36,688 bases of DNA from a virus, in IMG/VR virus record IMGVR_UViG_3300047318_000315, positions 1-36,688 of that record. One strand, 5' to 3'. The notes beneath the pieces are model-generated. The model was not told the origin of the DNA and did not search any database. It saw nothing but the letters and a program-made list of their open reading frames with translations. Made by a program: the position numbers and the translations under genes. Positions 1,149-6,638 of the stretch are shown here, in pieces (the stretch's first letter is position 1; every line of letters begins with the position of its first letter).

Positions 1149-1366
1149 GCACCTCCTACACCCCGCTCCACAACCCGGAGACCGAGGCGCACGGCGTCGT
1201 CCCGACTCTGCAGCGGGCCATCGACCAGGCCCGGAAGGTCCTCGCCGAGAAGACCCCGGCGAACATTCACGACCAGGACGCGATGATCCGCGCCGCCTAC
1301 GGCCTCCACTACGTCCTGCACGACCTGCTCGCCGCACTCGACGCCGAGCGGGGTGACGCTCGATGA
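1145..1366 (+). CDS. Small hypothetical protein
   Basis: A 73-residue protein starting at the ATG that overlaps the stop of the previous gene; its own stop overlaps the next ATG at 1363, so all three are probably translationally coupled. It begins MSTSYTPLHNPETEAHG and then forms an amphipathic helix pair (ALQRAIDQARKVL-like, YGLHYVLHDLLAAL). No cysteines, membrane segment or catalytic motif is visible. It may be a small helper of the membrane protein encoded next to it; the function is unknown. Confidence 0.6.
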   Translation: MSTSYTPLHNPETEAHGVVPTLQRAIDQARKVLAEKTPANIHDQDAMIRAAYGLHYVLHDLLAALDAERGDAR

Positions 1367-2574
1367 CCGCGCTCACCACCTGGGCCCAGGCCCACACGAC
1401 CGCCGCCGCCATCACGATCGGCCTACTGCTCGTCGGGCTGGTCCTGCTGGCCCGCGCGATCGGCAAGGCCGTCGACTGGCCGCCCGCCGCCGTCGCGGTC
1501 GCCTCGCTCGCCGCGATGGCGTGCACCGCCTACAGCGCCGACACGTCGTGGCGGTTCGCCGAGCACCGCCTCGGCATGACGTCCGCCGGCGAGCGCGGCG
1601 CCATGTTCGCCGCCGCCGAACTCGCCCTGTTCGCCTGCGCCCTCATGGCCCGGCAGAACCTGCGCTCCCCGCAGGGGGCGCCCGGCACCCCCGGCGTCCT
1701 CGTCTGGCTCATCACCGGCGTCCAAGTCATTCCTGCCTACAGCGAGTCCGGCATCGTCGGCGGCACCGTCCGCGCCGTCGTCGGCCCCATCCTCGCCGCC
1801 CTGCTCTGGCACCTCGCCATGGGCATCGAGCTGCGGCACGCCACACCGGACGCCACCTCGCAGAGCCTGCCCGCCCTACTCGCCCGCGAGATCCGCGAGC
1901 GGCTGCTGTCCCGCCTCGGCCTGGCAGTCCGCGACCGGTCGGCGGAGCAGATCACCCGCGACCGGGCCACAGTGAAGGCGGTCGCCCTCGCGGCGAAGCT
2001 CGCCGCCATGAAGCCCGGCGCCCGCGGTCGGGCCCGCATCGAGCGGCGCCTGTCCGTCGCCGTCGGCAAGGCCCAGGCCGGCGCCGACCAGCAGCAGCGG
2101 GCCCGGCTTCTGGAGCTGCTCGCAGCCCGCCGGCACTCCGCAGCCCTCGCCACCATCGACCTGCCGTCCCCGTGGCAGGACACCTCCCAGGACGCACAGG
2201 ACGCACAGGACGCCCCGCAGGACACCGAGGACGCGCCCGCGTCCCCGCCCGTCCCGCCTTTTCCGAACCCCGTCCCGCCCGGCGTCCGGCTGCTCCCGAT
2301 CGTCGCCCGCCCACCGGCCGCTGCGCCGACCGCCCAGGACGCCCAGGACGCCCAGGACGCGCCCGAGGACGACGAGGACGGACCCGACGGGCCCCCGCCC
2401 GAGCCGCCCCTCATGACGTCCGCTCAGGTCGCCTACTACTACAACATCGAGCAGTCGACCGTCCGGTCCTGGGTGCACGCAGGACGCCTCACCGTCCACA
2501 GCAAGGACGCCCGAGGACGCAACCTGTTCCACCCCGAGCAACTGCCGGACGTCTACCTGGGAGTACCGGGATGA
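1363..2574 (+). CDS. Multi-pass membrane protein with C-terminal DNA-binding HTH (Spd/DUF2637-like)
   Basis: A 403-residue protein with about five membrane segments (residues ~13-32, 41-58, 79-97, 111-128, 134-155), then a basic cytoplasmic stretch (~165-270), two acidic tandem repeats of the unit QDA (~275-290 and ~324-340) and a C-terminal MerR/excisionase-like domain (~350-403: TSAQVAYYYNIEQSTVRSW, then a basic wing). The membrane part, with its FAEHxLG and YSESG motifs, resembles the DUF2637/SpdB-type proteins encoded near transfer genes of Streptomyces plasmids and integrative elements. This suggests a protein that ties DNA to the membrane. No ATPase motif is present. It starts an operon of membrane proteins with overlapping starts. 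The family assignment is from memory of sequence patterns. Confidence 0.65.
   Translation: MTALTTWAQAHTTAAAITIGLLLVGLVLLARAIGKAVDWPPAAVAVASLAAMACTAYSADTSWRFAEHRLGMTSAGERGAMFAAAELALFACALMARQNLRSPQGAPGTPGVLVWLITGVQVIPAYSESGIVGGTVRAVVGPILAALLWHLAMGIELRHATPDATSQSLPALLAREIRERLLSRLGLAVRDRSAEQITRDRATVKAVALAAKLAAMKPGARGRARIERRLSVAVGKAQAGADQQQRARLLELLAARRHSAALATIDLPSPWQDTSQDAQDAQDAPQDTEDAPASPPVPPFPNPVPPGVRLLPIVARPPAAAPTAQDAQDAQDAPEDDEDGPDGPPPEPPLMTSAQVAYYYNIEQSTVRSWVHAGRLTVHSKDARGRNLFHPEQLPDVYLGVPG
2186..2365 (+). repeat. In-gene tandem repeats encoding QDA units
   Basis: Two blocks of direct repeats built on CAGGACGC (about 2188-2220 and 2337-2362) code for Gln-Asp-Ala units in the linker between the membrane and HTH domains of the protein at 1363-2574. 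Such blocks can change length by slippage. Confidence 0.7.
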
Positions 2575-2781: not shown

Positions 2782-3333
2782 ATGCCTGACCCCATCACCC
2801 CCAGCCGGATCATCCCCGCCGGCGTCCCGCTTCCCGCCCGGGCACCCGCCCCCGGTGAGGCCCCGCCGTGGCGTCCCACTCCGCCGCCTCCAGCCCCGCC
2901 TGCACCAGCACCGTGGCCGGGATTCCCGCCGCCTCCACCCCCGGGGCCCATCGACGTCCACGTCACCCTCATGCCCGCCCCCCTACCGGAGCCCGAACCG
3001 GAGCCCCGCTGGTGGGAGCGCACCTGGGACTACCTCACCGACCGCCTGGTCACCTGGCGCATGGCCGTGGCGATCCTCGCCGCCCTCACCCCCTGGGCCG
3101 GAGGCGAAAGCCCCGTCGGGATCTGGTCCCACACCGTGCACCAGGCCCGCACCGAGGCCGGCATCGGCGCCGCCTACGTCATCGCCGGCGTCGCCGTCAC
3201 CGCCGCCTGGGCCCTCGACCGGCACACCGGCCGCACCGTGCCCCGCTTCTTCCTCGTCACCGCCAGCCTCGGCGCCCTCGGCGTCCTGCACTGGTGGGAC
3301 CCCTTCCTCCTCCTCACCGGAGTCACCCGATGA
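2782..3333 (+). CDS. Membrane protein with proline-rich N-terminus
   Basis: A 183-residue protein. Residues 1-75 are proline-rich (PPPPAPPAPAP, FPPPPPPGP) and likely cytoplasmic or extended. From about residue 75, RWWERTWDYL precedes three to four membrane helices (~95-112, ~130-148, ~156-180). An AGGA ribosome binding site lies 4 bases before the ATG. The stop overlaps the next ATG at 3330. Similar pro-rich, C-terminally membrane-spanning proteins are encoded next to SpdB-type genes in Streptomyces integrative elements. No enzymatic motif is visible; I infer a structural partner in a membrane complex with its operon neighbours. Confidence 0.6.
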   Translation: MPDPITPSRIIPAGVPLPARAPAPGEAPPWRPTPPPPAPPAPAPWPGFPPPPPPGPIDVHVTLMPAPLPEPEPEPRWWERTWDYLTDRLVTWRMAVAILAALTPWAGGESPVGIWSHTVHQARTEAGIGAAYVIAGVAVTAAWALDRHTGRTVPRFFLVTASLGALGVLHWWDPFLLLTGVTR

Positions 3334-3842
3334 CCGGCACCACCACCCTCACCCTCGGCGGACTCCTCGCCGCCCTGCTCGTGCTGCTCGCCAACCTCCA
3401 CCCCTGGTGGACCGGCAGCCGCGAGATGAAGCAGCTCGCCGCGTTCGGCAAGGGCGTCGCCGCCGCGGCCTGCGCCGCCGCCTGCCCCGGCGGCATCCTC
3501 GGCTGGGCCCACTCCCGATCCGGAGCCGTCGCCAACGGCGCCGGCGAGCGCACCGGCAGCGCAGCCACCGGTACGACCTCGGGCACGGGCCTGACCAGCG
3601 GCCAGCTCGTCGGCCTCGGCACCACAGGCGCCGTCATCGTCGTCCTGGCCGTGTTCCTCGTCGGCCTGTCGTACAAGGCGGCAGGGAAGAAGGACAAGCG
3701 CCGTATCGTCGGCGGCGCGTTCGTCGGCTCCACCCTGTGCCTCACCGCCGGTGTGGCCGGCGCGCTGGCCTGGCTGCCCGGCGCCCTCAACGGAGCCGGT
3801 GACGCGGTCGTCGCCGCAGTGCAGGGGGCGGGCATCCTGTGA
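3330..3842 (+). CDS. Membrane protein of the Spd-like operon
   Basis: A 170-residue protein with about four hydrophobic helices: residues ~6-26 (LGGLLAALLVLLANL), ~38-56, ~88-112 (LGTTGAVIVVLAVFLVGL) and ~125-150, separated by a Gly/Thr-rich loop and a basic loop KAAGKKDKRR. The start ATG overlaps the upstream stop and the stop overlaps the GTG of the next gene, showing translational coupling in the membrane operon. The loop 'TSGTGLTSGQ' and overall plan resemble hypothetical membrane proteins of actinomycete integrative elements. It has no known catalytic residues. Probably part of one membrane assembly with the genes at 1363, 2782 and 3839. Confidence 0.6.
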   Translation: MTGTTTLTLGGLLAALLVLLANLHPWWTGSREMKQLAAFGKGVAAAACAAACPGGILGWAHSRSGAVANGAGERTGSAATGTTSGTGLTSGQLVGLGTTGAVIVVLAVFLVGLSYKAAGKKDKRRIVGGAFVGSTLCLTAGVAGALAWLPGALNGAGDAVVAAVQGAGIL

Positions 3843-4429
3843 GCCGCCTCGCCCGCCCCGCCGACCGTCTCGCCACCGGCTCCCGCCTCGTGGCCCGCCG
3901 TCTCGCCGCGCGCGCCGCCGCCTGGTGCGCGGGCGGCCGCCGCGACGACCTGCCCGGCTGGCGCGGCGCCCTCGGCGTCATCGTCCGCGCCGTCGTCCTC
4001 GCTCTCGGCGTGTACGTCCTGGCCCGGATCGGGCGCGCTCTGCCCGCCCTGATGTGGGCGCTGAGCGGCGGCTGGACCGTCGCCGCCTGGCGTGCGGGCC
4101 ACACTCCGGTCGAGGCCCCCGCGGAGAGCGCGGAGACGACCGCTCCGGGCCTCGACCGGGAGGCCGTCCAGACGCTCCTCCTGGAAGCGATGGGCGACGC
4201 CCCCGTGGTGCACCTCCGCGCGGTCCTCGCCCACCTCCAGAAGAAGGGGCAGTGGGAGGGCCGGACAGTGAGTGATCTGCGCGCTGCTCTGGGGCGCCTG
4301 AGCATCCCTCACGAGCGCGGCGTGAAGGTGGCCGGCGTGCCGACGTGGGGAGTGCGCCGGAGGGATCTGCAGACCCCTTCCCCGGCCGCCGCCCAGGAGA
4401 CGTCTACCGCAGCGTCTACCGCCGCCTGA
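3839..4429 (+). CDS. Membrane-anchored protein with C-terminal winged-helix-like domain
   Basis: A 196-residue protein starting at a GTG that overlaps the previous stop. Residues 1-45 are Arg/Ala-rich, ~48-85 form one or two membrane helices (VIVRAVVLALGVYVLARI, ALPALMWALSGGWTVAAW), and ~105-180 form a compact domain (VQTLLLEAMGDAPVVHLRAV, SDLRAALGRLSIPHERGVKV) that I recognise as a domain frequent at the C-terminus of membrane proteins in Streptomyces plasmids and integrative elements. It has a winged-helix feel but no proven DNA binding. The last codons lie inside the TCTACCG repeat array, so the 3' end of the gene doubles as a DNA site. Confidence 0.6.
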   Translation: MSRLARPADRLATGSRLVARRLAARAAAWCAGGRRDDLPGWRGALGVIVRAVVLALGVYVLARIGRALPALMWALSGGWTVAAWRAGHTPVEAPAESAETTAPGLDREAVQTLLLEAMGDAPVVHLRAVLAHLQKKGQWEGRTVSDLRAALGRLSIPHERGVKVAGVPTWGVRRRDLQTPSPAAAQETSTAASTAA

Positions 4430-4489
4430 CCTGCACGTCTACCGGTTCATCTACCGGCATCTACCGCCCGTCTACGGGCTCATCTACCC
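4403..4489 (+). repeat. Helically phased TCTACCG direct repeats
   Basis: Five exact TCTACCG copies (4403, 4415, 4438, 4450, 4460) and two with one change (TCTACGG at 4471, TCTACCC at 4483), all in one orientation. Start-to-start steps are 12, 23, 12, 10, 11 and 12 bases, close to one or two helical turns, as expected for cooperative protein binding on one DNA face. The array crosses the stop codon of the gene ending at 4429. It could be iterons, a partition site or a clt-like transfer site. Confidence 0.7.
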
Positions 4490-4528
4490 CGGGGCGGCCG
4501 CCATCCGCCAAGACATCGGCCGCCCCGG
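4489..4528 (+). repeat. Perfect 12-bp inverted repeat after the TCTACCG array
   Basis: CCGGGGCGGCCG (4489-4500) and CGGCCGCCCCGG (4517-4528) are perfect complements around a 16-base loop. It directly abuts the repeat array. It may be a terminator for the membrane operon (no U-tract) or part of the same DNA site. Confidence 0.65.
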
Positions 4529-4560
4529 TCCCATCCCACTCACGAGACAGGACCAACATC

Positions 4561-4698
4561 ATGGCACTCGGCTGGAGCAAGAAGCCCGAGCCCACCGACC
4601 CCCGCCTGAAGGGCCACGAGACGACCTACCAGGCGTCGCGCGGCGGCTGGCTGAAGCCCGCGGACAAGCCCACCCCGGGCAAGCCGAAGAAGAAGTAG
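4561..4698 (+). CDS. Small basic protein, 45 residues
   Basis: A short Lys/Pro-rich protein (MALGWSKKPEP..., ending PGKPKKK) with an AGGA site 9 bases upstream of the ATG and a strong terminator right after it. Longer upstream frames run through the repeat array and are unlikely. Proteins of about this length and composition occur in many actinophages and plasmids without known function. The basic ends suggest nucleic-acid binding; this is inference. Confidence 0.6.
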   Translation: MALGWSKKPEPTDPRLKGHETTYQASRGGWLKPADKPTPGKPKKK

Positions 4699-4755: not shown

Positions 4756-4965
4756 ATGGAAGGCATGGAGTCGCAGATCGTCCGGCCCGGCCACCTCACC
4801 GCCCACCAGACCGCGCGCGTCCTCGGCGTCGGCCTGCCGGCCGTCCGCAAGCTCGTCCAGCGCGGCCACCTCGCCCGCTCCGGCGGCACTCCCCGCCAGC
4901 CCTGGTACGCCGTCCACGACGTCGCCGCCCTCGCCGCCGACCGCCGCCCACACGACGCCGCTTGA
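4756..4965 (+). CDS. Excisionase/MerR-like small HTH protein
   Basis: A 69-residue protein (66 if the second ATG at 4765 is used). LTAHQTARVLGVGLPAVRKL forms a helix-turn-helix, followed by GHLARSGG and a short wing-like stretch WYAVHDVAALA; this is the plan of excisionase and MerR-type N-terminal domains. It is alone between a terminator (4715-4744) and a promoter/operator region (4962-4990). Candidate roles are excisionase for the integrase at 26975-28585 or a local regulator. Supporting the first idea weakly, the GCAGGTCAG sequence beside its 3' end (4968) also occurs twice in the right arm of attP. There is no clear ribosome binding site for either start. Confidence 0.55.
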   Translation: MEGMESQIVRPGHLTAHQTARVLGVGLPAVRKLVQRGHLARSGGTPRQPWYAVHDVAALAADRRPHDAA

Positions 4966-4996: not shown

Positions 4997-5070
4997 GTAC
5001 AACTGTGCCCTCAAGAGGCACCACAGACGCACGACGAAGCCCCGGCCGCCTGCTCATCGGCCGGGGCTTC
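4997..5070 (+). ncRNA. Possible short RNA between a promoter and a terminator
   Basis: If the promoter at 4962-4990 is used, the transcript would run about 75 bases to the strong hairpin at 5036-5070. It has no open frame of note; it contains a small hairpin GTGCC/GGCAC (5005-5009, 5017-5021) before the terminator. It could be a regulatory RNA or an attenuated leader. Speculative. Confidence 0.25.
5036..5070 (+). terminator. Strong hairpin terminator
   Basis: GAAGCCCCGGCCG (5036-5048) and CGGCCGGGGCTTC (5058-5070) form a perfect 13-base-pair stem with a 9-base loop. Confidence 0.75.
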
Positions 5071-5141
5071 GCCGTGTCACAACACGGCCACAGGCGCCCC
5101 ACAACGCCCACCGAGGCCCGCATGATGCTCCCTCAGCATCA
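5071..5141 (+). promoter_or_regulatory. Two leader hairpins before the lipoprotein gene
   Basis: GCCGTGT/ACACGGC (5071-5077, 5082-5088) and TGATGCT/AGCATCA (5123-5129, 5135-5141) are perfect 7-base-pair stems. The second lies just upstream of the GGGGGG ribosome binding site at about 5149-5154, so it may affect translation of the lipoprotein. No good promoter was seen between them. Confidence 0.35.
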
Positions 5142-5157
5142 GCAACCTGGGGGGACC

Positions 5158-5724
5158 ATGCACGTCCGTAGAGCCGCCTGCGCCGCCATACTCATCACCG
5201 CCACCGCGACCGCCTGTAGCAGCAGCGGCGACAGCGCACCCCGCGCCACGGCCGCCAAGACCGCCACCGCCCCCGCCACACCGAACGCCGGCGCCGATGG
5301 CGTGCTCAAGATGGGCACGAAGAAGACCATCGATGACGACGCCAACGACGTCCACATCACCGTTCAGGCTGTCGAGTACCAGCAACCCTACAAGGGCCCC
5401 CAGCCGCAGAAGCCCGACGCCACCCAAGGCGGCGACATCTGGGCCACGGCCAGCATCAAGGTCTGCAACATCCGCGGTCCGATCATCAACGTGAGCCCGA
5501 CACCATGGGCTCTGGCCTACGAGGACGGCACCAGCATCGAATCGACCGGCCTGTCCGGCGGTGACCTGCCGAAGCCGGAGTTCCCCATGGACAGGCCCGT
5601 CAAGGCCGGCCGGTGCGCGGCGGGGCTGATCGCCTATCCCGTGCCGCACGGCAAGACGCCCGAACGGATCGTGTACGCCCCCGACGGCACGGACCCGATC
5701 GAGTGGGCCGTCAGCAAGGAGTAA
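5158..5724 (+). CDS. Secreted lipoprotein
   Basis: A 188-residue protein with a lipoprotein signal: MHVRRAACAAILITATATAC followed by SSSGDS, with the lipobox cysteine at residue 20. After a short Ala/Thr/Pro linker, residues ~50-188 form a beta-rich domain (VHITVQAVEYQQPY..., WATASIKVCNI, ...RCAAGLIAYPVP) reminiscent of DUF4352-type extracellular domains with two cysteines (~103 and ~159). A run of G lies 3-9 bases before the ATG. It stands alone, outside the structural operon, after three RNA hairpins. Phage lipoproteins known elsewhere block entry of related phages at the cell surface; lysogenic conversion or superinfection exclusion is a reasonable inference. Confidence 0.7.
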   Translation: MHVRRAACAAILITATATACSSSGDSAPRATAAKTATAPATPNAGADGVLKMGTKKTIDDDANDVHITVQAVEYQQPYKGPQPQKPDATQGGDIWATASIKVCNIRGPIINVSPTPWALAYEDGTSIESTGLSGGDLPKPEFPMDRPVKAGRCAAGLIAYPVPHGKTPERIVYAPDGTDPIEWAVSKE

Positions 5725-5738
5725 GGGAGGTGGCGCCC

Positions 5739-6014
5739 GTGGCAGGTATCCGCAACGGGCGCCCCTACCGTCGCCTGGTCACCGCGGTGAAGCGCCTCGG
5801 TCATCCCTGCTGGATCTGCGGGCACAACATCCCCGCGAACGTCGACGGGCGCACACACCCGCTCGCCTTCACCCTCGATCACCTCGTGCCGCTCAGCCGC
5901 GGCGGCGACCTACTCGACCCCGCCAACGCTCGCTCAGCGCACCGCCGCTGCAACTCTCAGCGCGGGAACAGGACGGCGCCGCGGCCGCAGTCGCGCGCGT
6001 CACGAAGGTGGTGA
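5739..6014 (+). CDS. HNH endonuclease
   Basis: A 91-residue nuclease. A zinc knuckle CWICG (C21, C24) is followed by the HNH core: LDHLVPLSRGG (D-H), the Asn-containing turn DPANARSAHRRCN and a final Cys pair. I chose the GTG at 5739 because GGGAGG lies 8 bases upstream; a GTG at 5730 overlaps that site. HNH proteins encoded next to terminase genes take part in cos cleavage in HK97-like cos phages. Here it lies about 640 bases before the terminase, separated by a P-loop gene. The two may act together in genome packaging. Confidence 0.85.
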   Translation: MAGIRNGRPYRRLVTAVKRLGHPCWICGHNIPANVDGRTHPLAFTLDHLVPLSRGGDLLDPANARSAHRRCNSQRGNRTAPRPQSRASRRW

Positions 6015-6020
6015 CGCGAC

Positions 6021-6458
6021 GTGCTGTACGTCGTCACCGGGCCGCCAGCCTCCGGCAAGTCCAGCTGGATCCAGTCGCACGCCACGGCGCGGGACATCGT
6101 CATCGACCTGGATCGCATCACCATCGCCCTCACTGGACCCGGCGCCCCGAACTGGAACCACGACCCTCTGCACCAGCGAGTCGCCCAGCGCGCGAGGTAC
6201 GCAGCCATCGACGAGGCGACGCAACACCTCGACAAGCTCGACGTCTACCTAATCCACACCATGCCGAGCCCCAAAGCCCTGGCCAAGTACAAGCGGCTCA
6301 AGGCCCGCATCGTGGTGGTCGACCCCGGGCGGGACATCGTCACGCAACGTATCGCTGCGATGCGCTCACCCGAGATGGAGCGCGTCGCGGCCCGGTGGTA
6401 CAACTCGCGGCGCGGACAGCCGCGGGCCGGCATGCCGCAGACGTCCCGGCAGTGGTGA
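6021..6458 (+). CDS. P-loop kinase-like ATPase
   Basis: A 145-residue P-loop protein. Walker A is GPPASGKSS (residues 7-15). It continues with IVIDLDRITIAL (a DxD-like nucleoside-kinase motif), then VYLIHTMP and an Arg-rich lid region DPGRDIVTQRIAAMR. The plan matches small phage AAA/polynucleotide-kinase-like proteins encoded between HNH and terminase genes in actinophages. It starts at GTG 6021, 6 bases after the HNH stop, and ends before a strong terminator. A role in end repair or packaging is inferred from context; the substrate is unknown. Confidence 0.7.
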   Translation: MLYVVTGPPASGKSSWIQSHATARDIVIDLDRITIALTGPGAPNWNHDPLHQRVAQRARYAAIDEATQHLDKLDVYLIHTMPSPKALAKYKRLKARIVVVDPGRDIVTQRIAAMRSPEMERVAARWYNSRRGQPRAGMPQTSRQW

Positions 6459-6504
6459 TCCGTATCGAAACGGACATAGTGGGATCATTCTTTGGATTTC
6501 GGGC

Positions 6505-6539
6505 CGGGCGACCCAAACGCCCTTGTCGCCCGATTTTTT
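6505..6539 (+). terminator. Canonical rho-independent terminator
   Basis: CGGGCGAC (6505-6512) pairs with GTCGCCCG (6525-6532) and six T follow (6534-6539), the clearest U-tract terminator in the window. It isolates the late operon from the left block. Confidence 0.85.
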
Positions 6540-6562
6540 GCGTGGCCTGGATGAAAGATCAA

Positions 6563-6638
6563 CTTCACGCGAACTGAGTTCGACCCATTTAGTGGAGATC
6601 GACTTCTGTCACTCTCGGTGACGTTACTCTGCGTGAAG
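6563..6638 (+). promoter_or_regulatory. Nested dyads before the terminase: late promoter region or cos site
   Basis: CTTCACGC (6563-6570) and GCGTGAAG (6631-6638) form an outer inverted repeat. Inside are GAACTGAGTTC (6571-6581) and GTCAC-TCTCG-GTGAC (6608-6622). A weak promoter TCGACT (6599-6604) / GTTACT (6623-6628, 18-base spacer) overlaps the last dyad. The sequence is AT-richer than its surroundings. The position just before the small terminase gene fits a cos/pac site or the late promoter. Confidence 0.5.

Follow-up and report, generated by a model that had tools for sequence, protein, structure and literature searches.

The locus considered here raises the question of why a phage should keep a regular series of short DNA repeats at the end of a membrane-protein gene, and which protein reads them. 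The window, that is the whole stretch of DNA analysed, is an IMG/VR virus record of 36,688 bases, in which a TCTACCG-like word recurs across the 3' end of the last gene of a small membrane operon, here called gene D. The explanation favoured by the sequence comparisons set out below, with a probability of roughly 60%, is that the array is a cis-acting site for the winged helix of D itself and probably serves in a membrane-docking complex. The features on which the argument turns are as follows.

1363 to 2574, plus strand: gene A, a protein with multiple membrane segments and a C-terminal HTH_17/BldC-like domain (family matches)
2782 to 3333, plus strand: gene B, a small membrane protein (phrog match, phrog_15316)
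3333 to 3842, plus strand: gene C, a small membrane protein (phrog match, phrog_16379)
3839 to 4429, plus strand: gene D, 196 amino acids, with an N-terminal helix, a membrane hairpin and a C-terminal winged helix (phrog_5650; AlphaFold2 model and winged-helix matches)
3962 to 4099, plus strand: predicted membrane hairpin of D, residues 42-87 (hydropathy peak of 2.39 at residue 44; long helix H42-87)
4148 to 4378, plus strand: winged-helix domain of D, about residues 104-180 (AlphaFold2 and structural matches), covarying with the array motif
4313 to 4357, plus strand: wing codons of D, residues 159-173, varying together with the array motif
4403 to 4421, plus strand: array copies 1 and 2 (TCTACCG), contained in the final codons of D with their rare TCT triplets; relatives have them equally far from the stop
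4427 to 4434, plus strand: the octamer TGACCTGC, which takes up the repeat position separating copies 2 and 3; the TGA within it is the stop codon of D
4438 to 4489, plus strand: array copies 3-7 (4438, 4450, 4460, 4471, 4483), non-coding, past the stop of D

The array comprises seven copies spanning 4403-4489, five of them exact (starting at 4403, 4415, 4438, 4450 and 4460) and two variant, TCTACGG at 4471 and TCTACCC at 4483, and the steps between successive copies are 12, 23, 12, 10, 11 and 12 bases. Its chain score is 6.0, the highest of any stretch of the window, whereas 300 dinucleotide shuffles gave 3.0 at most, and the seven direct repeats, stepping by 10-12 or 23 bases, that a first-pass annotation had described are thereby confirmed. 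The helical phasing claimed at the same time is approximate, the mean period of copies 3-7 being about 11.4 bp, which amounts to a drift of roughly a third of a turn round the helix. The second-highest repeat score in the window belongs to the repetitive QDAQDAQDA linker of gene A (approximately 2041-2400).

Repeats of this kind might be the by-product of a repetitive protein tail or of tandem duplication, and copies 1 and 2 are indeed 12 bases apart and mutually in frame, each coding for Ser-Thr. To that extent the earlier argument that the spacing is not a multiple of three fails for the coding copies. However, five of the seven copies lie past the stop codon and in one relative (L162) all of them do, which refutes a protein repeat as the source, and the flanks between copies differ among relatives while the motif and its spacing persist. 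Across 42 homologues, Ser codons are TCT in 68 of 82 cases in the last 11 codons of D, compared with 6 of 237 in its body, and although these homologues share kinship and the counts are not independent, the contrast is still large. Since TCT is so concentrated in the tail, the DNA itself is under selection, and by this route the point of the spacing argument is recovered; the chance that the array is a by-product is negligible.

Relatives of D were compared in 20 viral loci, in the phages Kromp and VWB and in 20 Streptomyces chromosomal loci. Homologues occur in 72 of 393 sampled Streptomyces genomes, and a class-wide draw of 395 genomes yielded only 10 with a match. The comparison with related phages and elements, which had been proposed as a check, found an array with near-identical spacing behind D in about 18 of the 20 viral relatives and in most of the close chromosomal ones, and its retention in nearly all close relatives supports the proposal of a DNA site that acts in cis and is associated with the membrane operon. 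In VWB the word TCTCCC replaces TCTACC, and the record of that phage carries no repeat annotation at the site. Phage OnionKnight, whose membrane-gene DNA matches, lacks the array, and its gp60 differs from D and has no winged helix; weak homologues of D often have no clear array. Each phage has a single array, and a second suggested check, a search for TCTACCG clusters in host genomes, found the other pairs there to be isolated, so that scattering of the KOPS kind can be rejected. TCTACCG pairs in viral contigs at large were likewise set aside, true arrays occurring, among the matches listed, only beside D or the octamer (L084, L095, L114, L121), and L025 proved to be an unrelated 14-bp tandem repeat. 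Three loci (L128, at 5001-6571, L167 and L205) contain two tandem D-like genes, and in L128 the first of them is followed by a degenerate array of mixed TCTCCC/TCTTCC words, though its wing matches that of the window. In another locus (L139, 5001-5315) the N-terminal membrane segment that precedes winged helix and array is a different one, an arrangement suggesting that the two move as a unit.

The AlphaFold2 model of D (mean pLDDT 75.5, pTM 0.34) ends in a winged helix, and structural matches to residues 100-184 are mostly winged helices with no single close match; the hairpin topology of its membrane part is a prediction. No Pfam or NCBIfam family matches D, the MerR, BldC and excisionase families included. 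Among 30 members, Pfam searches at E<=1 gave no FtsK_gamma hit, remote kinship lying beyond the reach of sequence tests alone, and the absence of a TraB/FtsK winged helix from the structural matches has no value for exclusion. A literature search on D-like systems found nothing relevant.

An important consideration in establishing what reads the array is whether its word changes with the protein. A motif-blind search for repeated words at the array position gave arrays scoring at least 4 in 52 of 98 homologues, as against 16 of 196 control stretches, and other winged-helix classes were found to carry different words in the same place:

ACTACA, behind VRVRGxGVTVGVHR wings
GCTACA, behind many STGV wings
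CTCTCC, behind GRSGVHR wings
CAACA, behind GNGPGVH wings
GTAGAC, behind GRSGIKA wings

Motif similarity correlates more strongly with identity in the H1-H3 helices (r=0.70) and in the wing (r=0.60) than with that in the membrane part (0.44), and in a joint regression the helices alone reach clear significance (P=0.002; wing P=0.06), the membrane part contributing nothing (0.03, P=0.35). Among pairs with unlike helices, motif similarity is 0.70 if the wings are alike versus 0.10-0.32. A natural chimera (L140) has helices 73% identical to those of L158, whose word is ACTACA, a wing 94% identical to that of the window, and a TCTACC array; in homologues outside the sample with a known wing type the expected motif was present in two of two. 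The wing codons touch the array, so that a single recombination could carry both, and linkage explains part of the covariation; for the same reason the chimera is no proof of recognition. As evidence of recognition the covariation is strong but not conclusive, and on comparative grounds D is a well-supported candidate for the binder of the array.

Two domains had been nominated as binders, the C-terminal ends of the proteins at 3839-4429 and 1363-2574, and the motif tracks the winged helix of the first, that is of D, which is the likely one. It is improbable that the array is instead bound by the helix-turn-helix of A or by that of a small protein encoded at 4756-4965. Both are MerR/BldC/excisionase-like, and for BldC head-to-tail binding to direct repeats at intervals of one helical turn is documented (PMC5859096). 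However, the same TCTACC array is preceded in relatives by several mutually unrelated proteins, and for this reason A is unlikely to set the motif; the genes past the array, too, differ between relatives. The ends of A counterparts in other phages resemble helix-turn-helix domains of unrelated kinds.

The Spd-like neighbourhood had led to a comparison with the clt locus of Streptomyces plasmids such as pSVH1, and there is a real resemblance. As with TraB and its TRS repeats in clt, there is an element-encoded membrane-associated protein, short repeats on its own element and Spd-type neighbours (PMC4170104), and the short direct repeats have their counterpart in the 7-bp repeats of the array. 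The membrane genes upstream of D in relatives, the counterparts of A among them, belong to the DUF2637 family, whose members adjoin FtsK-like genes in many Streptomyces genomes and are thereby linked to conjugation-type modules. About 11 Streptomyces genomes have a DUF2637 gene (about 250 amino acids) at most some 1.5 kb from an FtsK-like gene, e.g. G403:C3 6390939-6392309. However, FtsK_SpoIIIE (PF01580) was found in none of 12 whole phage records, tblastn with FtsK domains gave nothing in 67 loci, the window included, and a search of plasmids revealed no close homologue of D. The ParA domain AAA_31 (PF13614) was likewise found in 0 of the 12 records, 10 of which encode a tyrosine integrase, and several D loci lie in chromosomal contigs, observations with which a transient plasmid state would still be compatible. 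Since these 12 records contain neither FtsK/TraB nor ParA, the site is regarded neither as a clt locus for TraB nor as a centromere of the ParABS type, and neither the transfer locus nor the partition site of the original proposal is sustained. The present elements are phages without an FtsK/TraB ATPase, the motif is different and the site is at the end of the presumed binder's own gene; a conjugation locus served by a TraB/FtsK translocase is accordingly a very improbable reading.

The step of 23 bases within the array is explained by the octamer, which occupies the slot of the "missing" repeat. Of 98 homologues, 76 have either TGACCTGC or its complement next to the array, counted from -60 to +300 relative to the winged-helix end, and they span all motif classes; the other 22 lack it, and 850 kb of loci contain 195 occurrences in all. 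In the TCTACC class the distance from copy to octamer is 12 bp in 32 of 40 loci and that from octamer to copy is 11 bp in 33 of 40. One relative (L158) keeps the octamer though it does not serve there as a stop codon, and in four of four homologues found later GACCTGC or its complement lies no more than 155 bases from the winged-helix end. A literature search on the octamer, confined to one collection of papers, found no paper. The plasmid pIJ101 contains three octamers.

Membrane-anchored winged-helix regulators such as ToxR and CadC exist, and D might be a membrane-bound one-component regulator for which the array is an operator or roadblock acting on its own operon or on the genes behind. 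The window has phage portal and capsid-type genes downstream, and terminase and portal genes lie a few kb further on at most in many loci, so that the array sits between the operon and the late genes. Such control is nevertheless unlikely, since the gene following the array varies widely, the array often nearly reaches the ribosome-binding site of that gene (L131, L153), where a promoter would find no space, and many homologues have it whole within the D reading frame.

A site lying inside the gene that encodes its presumed binder also recalls lambda O, a soluble initiator whose ori iterons lie inside its own gene, and winged helices of plasmid Rep proteins bind iterons. In VWB the GC-skew minimum is 2 kb from the array. 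However, no turn of skew coincides with the array in Kromp or in the window, and D has no recognisable replication domain and has a membrane hairpin instead, so that an array of origin iterons recognised by D as replication initiator is rather improbable. Quite improbable, too, is action in the mRNA, where UCUACCG repeats bound by D or another protein would control translation of the next gene. The array would be transcribed if the operon is read through, it falls within the leader of the gene that follows and its stretch folds strongly (z = -4.2), but the fold is owed largely to an inverted repeat downstream, and repeats set roughly one DNA turn apart, with a double step of 23-24 bp, suit double-stranded DNA.

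Recognition of the array by D would proceed through the winged helix, with several molecules side by side and about one helical turn apart on the direct repeats, for which BldC offers a precedent, and binding may be cooperative. Because each D also carries a predicted membrane hairpin, array-bound molecules may form a nucleoprotein patch fixing phage DNA at the membrane, a role for D that follows from its predicted topology. The octamer would be bound by a second, shared factor, either a host protein or D itself. The least certain part is the purpose of docking, which might be membrane-associated replication of the phage or an Spd-like spreading through the hyphae.

The phage protein p16.7 of phi29 is likewise a membrane protein with a DNA-binding domain and anchors phage DNA at the membrane, but its DNA-binding fold is different from that of D and it is not known to have a cognate direct-repeat array. 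BldC, Xis and RdfS form filaments in which, as proposed for D, winged helices lie side by side on DNA, in BldC on direct repeats with a spacing near one helical turn (PMC5859096, PMC11963761); they are soluble regulators or excision factors with no sequence match to D, whereas D is predicted to be membrane-anchored. The DNA-binding spread protein SpdA2 of pIJ101 has its sps sites, two to three repeats of a conserved 12-bp palindrome, inside its own gene (PMC4170104), as the array lies at or in the gene of D, its presumed binder, but here there are 5-8 direct repeats and no palindrome, the motif changes with the protein and D is predicted to sit in the membrane. SpdB2 of pSVH1 is an integral membrane protein that binds double-stranded DNA without sequence specificity (cited in PMC4170104); D would share the membrane location and the putative binding of double-stranded DNA, and differ in its specificity.

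A wider generalisation, tentative and rather more doubtful than probable, is that docking of this kind extends across Streptomyces phages, each membrane-anchored winged-helix protein having its own DNA word in a cognate gene-end array and the invariant octamer being read by a conserved host factor. As many pairs of winged helix and motif have diverged together, the D family would constitute a natural data set for a recognition code, and with protein and site sequences paired in dozens of phages, the specificity of winged helices can be tested directly. The invariant octamer suggests a shared partner. A membrane-docking site in a temperate phage would bear on how phage DNA is placed or spread in multicellular hyphae.

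Immediately behind the array are two further features.

4489 to 4528, no strand assigned: perfect 12-bp inverted repeat (hairpin), arms 4489-4500 and 4517-4528 with 16 nucleotides between them, an element apart from the array
4561 to 4698, plus strand: gene for 45 amino acids (MALGWSKKPEP...), accompanying the inverted repeat

The inverted repeat is present exactly as first described, but the notion that it is a component of the array has been abandoned. A perfect inverted repeat of at least 10 bp accompanies 14 of 42 arrays, nine of these 14 also having the 45-amino-acid gene, while 23 arrays have neither, and in OnionKnight both are present where the array is absent. The repeat is probably a terminator or leader of the small gene. 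The stretch from 4489 to 4698 has short matches in several Streptomyces plasmids, and inverted repeat and gene together look like a mobile module of their own.
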